Positions 2,594 through 28,155 of a stretch of 31,258 nucleotides of DNA are shown piece after piece. The DNA lies in the IMG/VR virus record IMGVR_UViG_3300003323_000545, positions 1-31,258 of that record. The stretch is one strand, 5' to 3'. How positions within the stretch are numbered: position 1 is the first letter of the stretch; each line of letters begins with the position of its first letter. The notes beneath the pieces were generated by a model. It ran no database searches. It had not been told where the DNA came from and was given only the letters and a program-made list of their open reading frames with translations. Position numbers and translations under genes: made by a program. The stretch comes from a virus.

Positions 2594-2767
2594 ATGAATC
2601 TATTAGACGAAAACCTAAATAAAAAGATTGAAAATTTGGCAAAAAGAAAAGCCGAACAATCTTCATCGAAGAAAAAAATTACTGACGCGGAGTACCTAGA
2701 GAGAATTAAAAACAAAGACAATACTAAAAACTTTTACGCACAAGGATTTGACCCGAATGATAACTAA
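2594..2767 (+). CDS. Small charged hypothetical protein
   Basis: A 57-residue lysine/glutamate-rich helical protein, chosen to start at the ATG one base after the previous stop. A longer in-frame version from 2429 would overlap the zinc-binding gene almost fully and is rejected. It is the last gene before the non-coding RNA region. Confidence 0.5.
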   Translation: MNLLDENLNKKIENLAKRKAEQSSSKKKITDAEYLERIKNKDNTKNFYAQGFDPNDN

Positions 2768-2807
2768 AAGTCGATTTAGTTTCCGAATGTGAAGAAATAG
2801 TAACTAA

Positions 2808-2986
2808 CGTGCAGAAATGTGGGGTAGTGCTTGTATGTCTCCTGCTGAAAGCCCACAGAGGACACATAAGTATCTTGTATCTTACGCCCACCAAGGAATA
2901 CAAGCATTTTGTACCGCCTGTACCACGAGTACAAACAGCGACGCGGCGCAATAAAATCCCGACCGAGTACCCCACATTCCTGCACG
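2808..2986 (+). ncRNA. Candidate structured RNA 1 (about 180 nt)
   Basis: No credible gene lies here, but the stretch is closed by a 19-base arm at 2808-2826 (CGTGCAGAAATGTGGGGTA) complementary to 2968-2986 with a single A-C mismatch. Inside are: GCTTGTAT 2829-2836 pairing with ATACAAGC 2898-2905; TGTCTCCTG 2836-2844 pairing with CAGAGGACA 2856-2864, with one G-U pair and one mismatch; and TTTGTAC 2908-2914 pairing with GTACAAA 2929-2935. CTTGTAT recurs at 2874-2880, so ATACAAG has two possible partners, which is how a switch could work. It is preceded by TAGTAACTAAC, shared with RNA 2. It matches no RNA family I can recall. Strand is assumed from the neighbouring genes. Confidence 0.55.
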
Positions 2987-7310: not shown

Positions 7311-7664
7311 ATGCAACACCAAGAAATAAGAGAGAAGTGGAATAAATGCCGTCATTCAATGCGTGCAATGAAAGGATTTACTGTTTGTTGTGTCTATTGC
7401 AAAAAATCTCTTGATGAAATGTTTGAAGAAATGCTTGCATATGCCGACATCTGTGTCTCTCAAGCAGTAGCCGAGGAACGGAACCGTATAGCGAAGGAGC
7501 TTCTTAATTTACCAAGACAGCAAATGGTATTTCGTCCCAAAGACGACATATCAAAAGAGATGCTTCATCCTGAAACGGTTTTGTTTGAACATGTAAAAAG
7601 TTTAGCCGCCCAAATCGTCCGCGGCGACGGTAAATCCAGTCCACTAGAATTAGAAAGTCGCTAA
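7311..7664 (+). CDS. Hypothetical protein with an N-terminal CxxC
   Basis: A 117-residue protein. C13, H15, C26, CVYC (27-30) could bind one zinc. The middle is helical (DEMFEEMLAYADICVSQAVAEERNRIA), a pattern I associate with small phage proteins of unknown function that begin with a zinc finger and continue with an EERxRI helix. The stop codon lies inside an 11-base perfect inverted repeat. Confidence 0.55.
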   Translation: MQHQEIREKWNKCRHSMRAMKGFTVCCVYCKKSLDEMFEEMLAYADICVSQAVAEERNRIAKELLNLPRQQMVFRPKDDISKEMLHPETVLFEHVKSLAAQIVRGDGKSSPLELESR

Positions 7665-7671
7665 TTCTAGT
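7643..7671 (+). repeat. Perfect 11-base inverted repeat across a stop codon
   Basis: ACTAGAATTAG (7643-7653) is exactly complementary to CTAATTCTAGT (7661-7671), with a 7-base loop. The TAA stop (7662-7664) sits in the 3' arm. As RNA it makes a stable hairpin that could protect the transcript end; as DNA it could be an operator. Confidence 0.6.
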
Positions 7672-7687
7672 CGAAGTAAAGAATAAT

Positions 7688-7707
7688 GAGGCTTTTGCCT
7701 TTATTTT
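7688..7707 (+). terminator. Possible weak intrinsic terminator
   Basis: GAGGC-TTTT-GCCTT followed by TATTTT, 5 bases before the next ATG. The stem is only five pairs including a G-U, so termination may be partial. Together with the preceding inverted repeat it separates the dense early operon from the gene at 7712. Confidence 0.4.
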
Positions 7708-7711
7708 CCAA

Positions 7712-8266
7712 ATGAATTATAATCAATATATGGAAATTGCTGCACGCTATGCTGATATATTCATTCCACTGGCCGTATCGGCAATCGGTGCTCTAATATC
7801 TTTTTACGTATATAAAAGCAAGGTTGACCGCCTAGAAACCGACGTAAAAGAAGTAAAGATTGAAATCAGGGAGATAAGGGACAAGGTAATCTCTTGCGAG
7901 ACATCACTGCGCGAACGTGCCCCGCTTAAAAAAGCTAAAAGCCCCGTCAGTCTCACTGAACGCGGAGACAAAGTGCTTGGAGAAAGCGGCGGCAGGTTCT
8001 TCGTGGAAACAAACTATGAAGAACTGAAAAAGAGCGTCGAAGACCAGAATCCGAATAATCCGTACGATATTCAGGAAGTCTCACACAAGGTATCTATGGA
8101 GCTTAAGACCGATCCGCGCATCAACACGATCAAAGACTACGCATTCAAAGAGGGACTTGAACTAGACGACATTCTCGACATTATGGGAATCTATCTTAGA
8201 GATAAAATCCTGAAAGATCGCAACATCTCTGTTGAAGCGATTGACGGACACACTCCAAAGGCCTAA
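7712..8266 (+). CDS. Membrane-anchored coiled-coil protein
   Basis: A 184-residue protein. Residues 14-34 form one membrane segment (YADIFIPLAVSAIGALISFYVY) near the N-terminus. A coiled coil follows (about 36-65, KVDRLETDVKEVKIEIREIRDKV), then a soluble C-terminal domain beginning SPVSLTERGDKVLGESGG. That SPVSLTE..G...GG opening and the DDILDIMGIYLRDKIL end occur, as I recall, in uncharacterised proteins of many bacteria and phages. Holin or sensor roles are possible but unproven. It is bounded by hairpins on both sides, so it is probably its own transcription unit. Confidence 0.6.
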   Translation: MNYNQYMEIAARYADIFIPLAVSAIGALISFYVYKSKVDRLETDVKEVKIEIREIRDKVISCETSLRERAPLKKAKSPVSLTERGDKVLGESGGRFFVETNYEELKKSVEDQNPNNPYDIQEVSHKVSMELKTDPRINTIKDYAFKEGLELDDILDIMGIYLRDKILKDRNISVEAIDGHTPKA

Positions 8267-8833: not shown

Positions 8834-10351
8834 ATGGATAAAATCTCAATCACTGGTATTGAGGCCAGAAAAAAAGCTATTAAGGGAATGTCATATGTCG
8901 GTGATGCCGTAAAAAGCACCATTGGACCATTTGGGCTTAATTTCTTGCTTGAGAAGGGGAATAAAAACACCAATGACGGTTACATAATCGCTTCTGAACT
9001 TTGTCCTACGATCAAGGATGAATATGAGCGTCGTGGTGCACTGGTAGCCCACGAAGCCAGTTCAAGGACCAACGAAGAGGTTGGCGATATGACTAGCGGC
9101 GCGTGGGCTTTGACAACAGAAATTACCAAGGCAGTCTCTCGTCTGCTTCCTGACGAAAACCGCATAAAAGCTCTGAAAACCCCTGCAGAAATTAAGAAAA
9201 TGCTTGAAACTTCTAAAAACGAGGTTATCTCCATTCTTGAACAGTCCGCAAAACCTATCACAGACAAAGAAACGCTTATAAAATCTGCTCTTGTTTCTGT
9301 AGAAGACGAAGAAATTGCAGAAATGCTCGGCTCTACTCAATGGGAGCTTGGACCAGAAGGCGTGATTATCGCAGAAGAGGTCAATGACACCGAAAGTTCA
9401 ATTGAAATAGTAAAGGGTATCCGCTTGGATAATGGCTTTGCATCTTCGCAGGTTGTAACAAATCCTGAGAAAAATAGCCTTGAAGTATCTGATGTTCCGG
9501 TATTGCTGACCAATTACACGATCGGAAAGGATGAGCTTTTGGCACTTAAAAAGTCAGTGTTTGATCAGCTCGTTGCCCAGAAAAAATGGGGAATTGTCAT
9601 TATCGCACGGGCGTTCACATCAGATGCTATTCAGCTCTGCATGGATACTACACGCGCAGGTTTTGCTATCTTCCCAGTAAATGCAGCCTATACAGACCAG
9701 ACACAGATAATGAAAGACATTGAAGCTGTTGTCGGTGGACGGTATATCGACACTGAAGAATCTCGTCTTGATGAAATCTACATCTCGGACATTGGTTTTG
9801 CTAAGCGTTTCGTAGCTCAGCAGTTCTCTTCAGTCATCACAGGAATCGACGACGATCAGTCTAAAGTCCGCGTAGAAAAGCGCCTTGAATTTCTTAAGTC
9901 TAAACTCACCGGAGAAAAGTCAGACTTCTACAAGAAACTATTGGAACAGCGCATCGCTCAGCTCACGACAGGTTTCGGAATACTCAAGGTAGGCTCCCAT
10001 TCAGCAAACGATCGCAAGCGTCTCAAAGATAAATGTGACGATGCAGTCCAGTCTGTCCGCCTCGCTCTCAAAGGCGGAACGGTTAAAGGAGGTGGACTTG
10101 CTCTAAAGGAAATCTCCGAAATGATGACCGACGACAACATCCTCAAACGTCCACTCACCTGCATCTACGACCAAATCATCTCAAGTGCCCCAGAAGGCTT
10201 TGAGATTGAAGATTGGGTGCGTGATCCGTTTCTTACAGTAAAGTCCGCTCTAACTCACGCTTGTGCTACTGCAGGGACATTTGCCAACACGAACGGTATC
10301 ATCACCACGAAGAACAAGAAGGAATGTAACTGCAATGAAAAAGCCGATTAA
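8834..10351 (+). CDS. groEL: Phage-encoded GroEL-like chaperonin
   Basis: A 505-residue group I chaperonin, against about 548 in E. coli. GroEL folds proteins in an ATP-driven double ring, and phage versions are thought to help fold capsid or other virion proteins. ATP-site landmarks persist: STIGPFG at residues 28-34, DG 48-49 (cf. KDG), GDMTSG at 84-89 for GDGTTT with Asp85 kept, Asp403 sixteen residues before the GGG at 419-421 (cf. Asp398), and DPFLTVKSAL near the end. The apical substrate/GroES surface is altered: E. coli DRGYLSPYF reads DNGFASSQV here, so Tyr203 and Phe204 align with Gln and Val. The C-terminus is CNCNEKAD, not a GGM tail. No GroES gene is seen. It stands upstream of the terminase and head genes. 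Confidence 0.93.
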   Translation: MDKISITGIEARKKAIKGMSYVGDAVKSTIGPFGLNFLLEKGNKNTNDGYIIASELCPTIKDEYERRGALVAHEASSRTNEEVGDMTSGAWALTTEITKAVSRLLPDENRIKALKTPAEIKKMLETSKNEVISILEQSAKPITDKETLIKSALVSVEDEEIAEMLGSTQWELGPEGVIIAEEVNDTESSIEIVKGIRLDNGFASSQVVTNPEKNSLEVSDVPVLLTNYTIGKDELLALKKSVFDQLVAQKKWGIVIIARAFTSDAIQLCMDTTRAGFAIFPVNAAYTDQTQIMKDIEAVVGGRYIDTEESRLDEIYISDIGFAKRFVAQQFSSVITGIDDDQSKVRVEKRLEFLKSKLTGEKSDFYKKLLEQRIAQLTTGFGILKVGSHSANDRKRLKDKCDDAVQSVRLALKGGTVKGGGLALKEISEMMTDDNILKRPLTCIYDQIISSAPEGFEIEDWVRDPFLTVKSALTHACATAGTFANTNGIITTKNKKECNCNEKAD

Positions 10352-27533: not shown

Positions 27534-27572
27534 ATGCATTTTTACCTTGATAAATAAGGGTAAAATAGGCAT
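27534..27572. repeat. Hairpin in the 27-kb island
   Basis: ATGC (27534-27537) and GCAT (27569-27572) bracket TTTTACCTT pairing with AAGGGTAAAA. It can form an AT-rich stem of about nine pairs with one G-U, closed by a short internal loop. No T-run is positioned as in a terminator. Role unknown. Confidence 0.4.
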
Positions 27573-27716: not shown

Positions 27717-27751
27717 TTAATTAAATTGTCATTAAACTATAGCACACAAAC

Positions 27752-27775
27752 AAAAAAGCCGCCATTTCTGGCGAC
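27752..27775 (-). terminator. Minus-strand intrinsic terminator
   Basis: Read on the minus strand: GTCGCCA-GAAA-TGGCGGC followed by TTTTTT. The stem has seven pairs, one of them G-U, with a GNRA tetraloop. It is a textbook terminator for a transcript that comes from the tRNA. Confidence 0.8.
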
Positions 27776-27971
27776 TCTCTTGCTAGCGTCCTTTTCCGAG
27801 TTAGAAATGACTCGAAATTTTGAATTGAGGAAGGTTCAAAACTCCTTAAAGACCTCAAAGAAGGAAACTAAAGGCTTATTAGACCTAACGACAGTATTTC
27901 TACTGTGCCTGAAGGGGCATATTTAGTCTACTGCAACTGTCACGGACAAGCAAGTAGTTTGTTAATAACTG
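27776..27971 (-). ncRNA. Structured minus-strand RNA between tRNA and terminator
   Basis: About 195 bases with no credible frame. On the minus strand it contains: ACAGTA-GAAA-TACTGT (27906-27891); GAGG..AAGG...CCTT.CCTC (between 27856 and 27827), a stem with a 5-base bulge; and TTTCGAGT with ACTCGGAAA (between 27817 and 27793), with one bulge. A CTACT/AGTAG pairing lies near 27930-27957. GNRA loops on the minus strand agree with the terminator direction. It could be a trailer of the tRNA transcript or an independent small RNA. No known family recognised. Confidence 0.45.
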
Positions 27972-28060
27972 TGGAGGGTGCGGGATTCAAACCCGCGAGG
28001 CCCCTTCAGAAGCCTTCCGAATTATAAAGTCGGCGCATTAAGTCACTCTGCCAACCCTCC
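27972..28060 (-). tRNA. tRNA with long variable arm, anticodon reads UAU
   Basis: On the minus strand GGAGGGT pairs with ACCCTCC (acceptor). A D-arm GCA/TGC has loop GAGTGACTTAA. The anticodon stem CCGAC/TTCGG shows a C-U mismatch at the loop end, with loop TTTATAA. A roughly 20-base variable region can pair GGC with GCC, and the T-arm is GCGGG-TTTGAAT-CCCGC. CCA is not encoded. A 7-base loop with U33 and A37 puts UAU in the anticodon, reading AUA (Ile), yet a long variable arm is typical of Leu, Ser or Tyr tRNAs. A73 as discriminator would suit Leu. The D-loop has GA where GG is usual. Isotype is therefore uncertain, and it may be degenerate. Confidence 0.75.
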
Positions 28061-28155
28061 AGTCCAAACGTTTTATTTTCACACGTTAGGATATAGGAGT
28101 CAATTTAAATTGGGAATAAATCTGTGCGTTACGCATTCACAGTTTCTAAAATATA

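Follow-up and report, generated by a model that had tools for sequence, protein, structure and literature searches.

A serine-type class II tRNA gene with a UAU anticodon in a tailed-phage record

The DNA analysed here (the window), a virus record of 31,258 nt with tailed-phage genes, contains a single tRNA gene in which body and anticodon disagree. Judged by its sequence the body is of the serine type, neither leucine nor tyrosine, while the anticodon is UAU. The explanation that we prefer, giving it somewhat less than an even chance, is that the gene specifies an AUA-reading tRNA of serine descent that would lean towards isoleucine and be kept as a folded RNA. Disagreement between body and anticodon in tRNAs tests the strictness of the genetic code, and this tRNA, with its A73, would be a natural test of the re-assignment of a serine tRNA to isoleucine. 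The features of the gene and its surroundings are as follows.

27972–28060, minus strand: class II tRNA gene, Ser-type body, UAU, A73, CCA unencoded (ARAGORN, Rfam, fold, body comparison)
28024–28026, minus strand: anticodon TAT (34–36) within the loop TTTATAA (32–38) (ARAGORN, anticodon at gene position 35; covariance-model alignment)
27998–28015, minus strand: variable arm AGGCTTC-TGAA-GGGGCCT, 7 bp (fold, geometry table)
28043, minus strand: A19, usual base G19 (sequence; A19/U56 found as well in the phage tRNA-Ser(UGA) of L077–L079)
27989, minus strand: U56, usual base C56, pairing with A19 (sequence; comparison with L077–L079)
28021–28029, minus strand: anticodon loop with flanking C31·U39 mismatch (28029, 28021) (fold; 4/5 stem pairs)
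28075–28103, minus strand: candidate promoter TTGACT-17-GAAAAT with a TG preceding the −10, ending 14 nt upstream of the gene (promoter scan)
27909–27918, minus strand: GCCCCTTCAG, lying in the 3′ trailer and exactly complementary over 10 nt to a section of the variable arm (fold of 27740–28060 minus, z −4.9)
27752–27775, minus strand: candidate terminator hairpin GTCGCCA-GAAA-TGGCGGC followed by TTTTTT, closing the minus-strand unit (sequence, fold)

ARAGORN calls a tRNA-Ile (tat) at 27971–28060 of the minus strand, and the Rfam model RF00005 (cut-off 29 bits) matches 27972–28060 on the same strand over its full length with 50.5 bits (E 3.5e-8). The program and the covariance-model alignment agree in placing UAU at the anticodon, and the other frames (UUA, AUA) were picked by neither. 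A preliminary description of a minus-strand tRNA with a class II arm, a UAU anticodon and an A73 discriminator is confirmed by these calls, by the fold and by the sequence itself, which reads GGAGGGT TG GCAGAGTGACTTAATGC G CCGAC TTTATAA TTCGG A AGGCTTC TGAA GGGGCCT C GCGGG TTTGAAT CCCGC ACCCTCC A; A73 is followed by CAG, hence CCA is not in the gene. The minimum-energy fold is a class II cloverleaf with 26 of 27 stem positions paired (acceptor 7/7, D 3/3, variable 7 bp, T 5/5, anticodon stem 4/5), C31·U39 being the sole failure. As only 6 of 200 shuffles folded as well (z −2.2), the cloverleaf is not due to chance. The features of functional tRNAs are present (7/5 acceptor branch, U8, A14, G15-C48, G18, A21, U33, A58), with the exceptions of C31·U39 and of A19-U56 in place of G19-C56. 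The G19-C56 contact is universal in tRNAs. Since the A19-U56 pair also occurs in the ordinary phage tRNA-Ser(UGA) of L077–L079, the contact seems to have been replaced rather than lost. This replacement and the intact stems make decay, the fallback of the preliminary description, unlikely, and the gene is real and probably maintained.

Besides terminase subunits, a head protein and tail proteins, the window encodes methyltransferases, an Erf-like annealing protein and a GroEL-like protein. Two of the tail-region genes are separated by 900 nt of intergenic DNA, and it is here that the tRNA gene lies, on the minus strand. Promoter-like sites are as frequent in this region as in shuffles (3 versus 3.3), and it is only the position and strand of the candidate promoter that are suggestive. 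The candidate terminator, about 200 nt downstream of the tRNA, was missed by the scanner, its pairing running into the A/T tract. The complement to the variable arm found in the trailer may be a chance match (estimated probability ~0.02). In our preferred explanation the gene would probably form its own minus-strand transcription unit between the tail genes, and the tRNA would be expressed and receive its CCA by addition.

The preliminary description allowed a Leu-, Ser- or Tyr-type body, and of these the Ser type stands. Against the class II tRNAs called by ARAGORN in the fetched loci, the best canonical body match was Ser (32.5), then Tyr (23.5) and Leu (15.5). The D-arm is of the Ser type, and the stem of the variable arm is preceded by one unpaired nucleotide and followed by C48 alone, a geometry found in 21/26 annotated Ser tRNAs, 0/19 Leu and 0/13 Tyr. 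A Leu or Tyr origin is ruled out by D-arm, arm geometry and scores. With tRNA-Leu the gene shares only A73 and the long arm, the Leu-type D-arm, A15-U48, G19-C56 and A20a being missing; compared with tRNA-Ser, it has UAU and A73 where a Ser anticodon and G73 are required. Among deposited phages, near-full-length matches were restricted to the tRNA-Ser(GCU) of Streptococcus phage Javan1 and Maribacter phage Panino (weak, E 0.8; 71–72% over nearly the whole gene, with a similar D-arm), which differ from the window tRNA in their anticodon, in the usual G19-C56 and, in Javan1, in G73. The Ser-GCU loop, TTGCTAA, is two bases away from TTTATAA. The tRNA thus most likely derives from a phage tRNA-Ser(GCU) by changes at 34 and 35, and the single change at position 36 of a Leu UAA loop proposed earlier is not supported. 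No exact relative of the tRNA turned up in viral contigs, and deposited phages showed nothing similar to the tRNA region.

IleRS needs an A73 discriminator. When the bacterial identity sets for Ser, Ile and Leu given in a review (PMC9976931) were applied, as the preliminary description had advised, the answer was divided. The strong Ile set is complete (A73, A35, U36, A37, A38), whereas the minor set (C4-G69, U12-A23, G16, C29-G41) is absent, with G4-C69, A12-U23, U16 and G29-C41 in its place. The Ser determinants C72, G2-C71, R4-Y69, C11-G24 and the long arm are retained; from the Ser set only G73, present in 23/26 Ser tRNAs of the sample, and G30-C40 are missing. Positions 15-48, 19-56 and 20a depart from the Leu set. 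SerRS ignores the anticodon (PMC9976931). Taken together the tRNA looks dual in identity. Our preferred explanation holds that A73, A35, U36, A37 and A38 would lead to charging wholly or mainly with isoleucine, that the change of G73 to A73 would weaken serine identity, and that AUA decoding would be supplied without the lysidine step required by the usual CAU tRNA. Bacterial tRNA-Ile2 (CAU, lysidine) and tRNA-Ile(UAU), which resemble the window tRNA in A73, A37 and A38 and in that it would read AUA, are class I tRNAs, whereas the window tRNA has a class II body.

Which residue is inserted at AUA codons is a real question, as had been noted at the outset, yet the insertion of a residue other than isoleucine is not borne out by the proteins of the phage. 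AUA accounts for 23% of its Ile codons (132/579), against 36% predicted from composition. At the 93 AUA positions aligned with the relatives L002, L003, L004 and L012, the relatives hold Ile 55, Val 15, Phe 5, Leu 4 and Ser 0, and Ile is conserved there as at AUU/AUC (p=0.81). AUA is therefore Ile in this phage, its reassignment to Ser is ruled out, and there is no sign of reassignment or of routine misincorporation. Efficient placement of Ser at AUA would harm the phage's own proteins, which favours Ile charging or weak activity. In the capsid and adjacent head/tail genes none of 35 Ile codons is AUA; other rare codons are shunned there too, and the capsid gene of L003 is also devoid of AUA, so that the avoidance was rejected as a mark of mistranslation, and no adaptation to the window tRNA is visible in the AUA usage of these genes.

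The window tRNA belongs to a scattered, little-known group of Ser-bodied UAU tRNAs, whose other members come from seven viral contigs and from about 18 loci in bacteria. Among 2.9 million viral contigs the pattern searched for, a Ser-type D-arm followed by the UAU loop, turned up in 7, all confirmed as class II. A set of 84,980 bacterial and archaeal genomes gave 19 occurrences, of which ARAGORN confirmed 16 (L015 and L031 are tRNA-like by eye, L027 is not). A control scan of the viral contigs with 16 non-Ser anticodons gave 23 confirmed cases for GUU, 10 for GAU, 7 for UAU, 2 for CAC and 1 for CUU, GUU and GAU being each one change away from Ser GCU. G73 is an Asn determinant. The 20 distinct Ser-like class II tRNA-Asn(GUU) of phages keep G73 and have G1-C72/G2-C71 in 3/20, versus 12/12 of the UAU tRNAs with an intact acceptor, the window counted (p=2e-6, uncorrected for shared phage ancestry); 10 of these 12 have G73. 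By this contrast in the acceptor pairs the GUU tRNAs look reassigned from Ser to Asn, while most UAU tRNAs look serine-accepting still, and the window tRNA, having A73, would be intermediate between the two groups. Class II tRNAs thus seem able to change identity in phages.

The window tRNA resembles the allo-tRNAs (Mukai et al. 2017, via PMC7609411), in which a non-Ser anticodon is likewise combined with a class II body of Ser-like type. According to PMC7609411, UAU is among their commonest anticodons and they are tied by their authors to transposons or toxin-antitoxin loci; their acceptor branch is 8/4 or 9/3, whereas the window tRNA, in a phage, folds as 7/5, with U8 opposite C65, and has A73. 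Among side observations, L032–L071 are the loci of the phage tRNA-Asn(GUU) genes whose class II bodies are Ser-like. One phage, L011, has two mismatched tRNAs: adjoining its UAU Ser-bodied tRNA is a Leu-bodied tRNA (9206–9293) with the Ser anticodon GGA and C33 for U33. A GAU version, annotated as tRNA-Ile, is found in an E. coli lambdoid prophage (L153, NZ_CP032237.1, 2729400–2729491) in opposite orientation to its neighbours; its acceptor end is broken and is immediately followed by a terminator. The GAU version is present in 11/5,426 E. coli genomes.

Some of the bacterial relatives lie beside defence genes, at loci picked by the tRNA pattern and not by a tested enrichment of such genes. 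In five Flavobacteriaceae loci (L017, L018, L021, L022, L151) the UAU tRNA, its acceptor mismatched at 1:72 and 2:71, has a small YodC-like gene on one side and, on the other, a repressor of the S24 type with which CBASS operons begin; these operons are of two different kinds. In L028 and L030 a UAU Ser-bodied tRNA is found among type I cas genes, with no CRISPR array assembled in the fetched contigs of either. The L028 tRNA (2729–2816, minus strand) lies between cas3 and the next cas operon genes, with the GSU0053 family nearby and degenerate 24-nt repeats, 75 nt apart, upstream. The L030 locus is 7600–8000, minus strand, of PLDF01000284.1, a Bryobacterales MAG. Here the promoter and the tRNA are followed in turn by a repeat-like stretch that ends in GGGGACTGAAAC, a spacer, a second partial repeat and cas3. 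The spacer opens with the 13 nt CTTGATCGTGCGG, which overlap the repeat-like stretch by one base (their first C is its last base) and recur without a mismatch immediately upstream of the −35 box of the tRNA. In this one locus the layout is CreTA-like, with the tRNA seemingly in the place of the toxin. CreTA is a CRISPR-regulated RNA toxin whose known CreT are mini-ORF RNAs sequestering a tRNA, one of them also acting through AUA decoding (PMC8501985). The likeness, an RNA gene that precedes cas3 and has behind it a repeat-like guide matching its promoter, holds for L030 only: no cas family was found among the window proteins scanned, no guide-like repeat lies beside the window tRNA, and beside its promoter there is no shared word of at least 11 nt. 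Other UAU tRNAs are near transposases, an integrase, a recombinase, an OLD-like nuclease or a methylase. The defence-linked relatives hint, by analogy, at mistranslating tRNAs as toxins, and those at CBASS and CRISPR loci raise the testable idea that a tRNA misreading a rare codon could be an addiction toxin. In its broadest form, which we consider very doubtful, Ser-bodied AUA-reading tRNAs would be mobile mistranslation toxins silenced by defence-linked repressors (the CRISPR guide in L030, possibly the S24 repressor by CBASS in Flavobacteriaceae), and phages would carry their own version as a weapon or counter-measure, that of the window shifted towards Ile by A73.

An isoleucine-leaning tRNA is supported by the 26 of 27 cloverleaf pairs, A19-U56, A73, the complete strong Ile set, Ile or Val at AUA positions in relatives, the identity change in the phage GUU tRNAs and the candidate promoter and terminator that flank the gene; the unmet minor Ile set, the Ser determinants kept, C31·U39 and the want of AUA adaptation in the capsid, head and tail genes speak against it. 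Those same Ser determinants, which include most of those of the acceptor and core and would be read by a synthetase blind to the anticodon (PMC9976931), would also suit a missense tRNA that is charged with Ser (or Leu) and puts the wrong residue at AUA, perhaps as a toxin or late weapon akin to the defence-linked bacterial UAU tRNAs. The G1-C72/G2-C71 and G73 of the UAU relatives, the L030 tRNA in the creT position, and the Ser that allo-tRNAs with non-Ser anticodons insert in E. coli (PMC7609411) point the same way. We nevertheless hold this to be unlikely, if worth keeping in mind: the window has A73 and not G73, its 132 AUA codons are conserved as AUU/AUC are, the Leu version lacks A15-U48, G19-C56 and A20a alike, and the window tRNA has no guide element. 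In nematodes, nev-tRNA-Ile(UAU), which also combines a long variable arm with UAU, is mature and leaves no detectable mistranslation in the proteome (PMC4300185); it is eukaryotic and of leucine identity, whereas the window tRNA is Ser-bodied and from a bacteriophage.

The RNA could also act outside elongation, either as a decoy that draws off an anticodon nuclease or toxin or as an element in the processing or regulation of the minus-strand transcript. The 1:72 and 2:71 mismatches that recur in Bacteroidota UAU and phage GAU versions, the truncated 3′ acceptor directly before a terminator in other relatives, the trailer complement, and the failure of UAU allo-tRNA genes in E. coli translation (PMC7609411) would fit such a role, but the intact acceptor of the window, with G1-C72 and A73, and its stems and core contacts suit a working tRNA, and we judge the role improbable. 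Decay of a tRNA-Ser from the host or another phage, with chance changes in the anticodon, would account for C31·U39 and for the rarity of the pattern among viral contigs, and the tRNA is not in the relatives' partial contigs, which do not span the region. Against it stand the 26 paired stem positions, the joint change of A19 and U56 and the candidate promoter just upstream, and it is, if anything, more improbable still.

Two further observations concern the window outside the tRNA gene. This small phage has a GroEL-like chaperonin gene (8834–10351) with at most about 28% identity to the GroEL proteins of deposited phages. A 32-nt intergenic stretch at 27537–27568, carrying the inverted repeat CCTTGATAAATAAGG, is 91% identical to 13608–13639 of L012; the stretch is common to the window and the otherwise distant phage MW202577.1, and is possibly a regulatory site.
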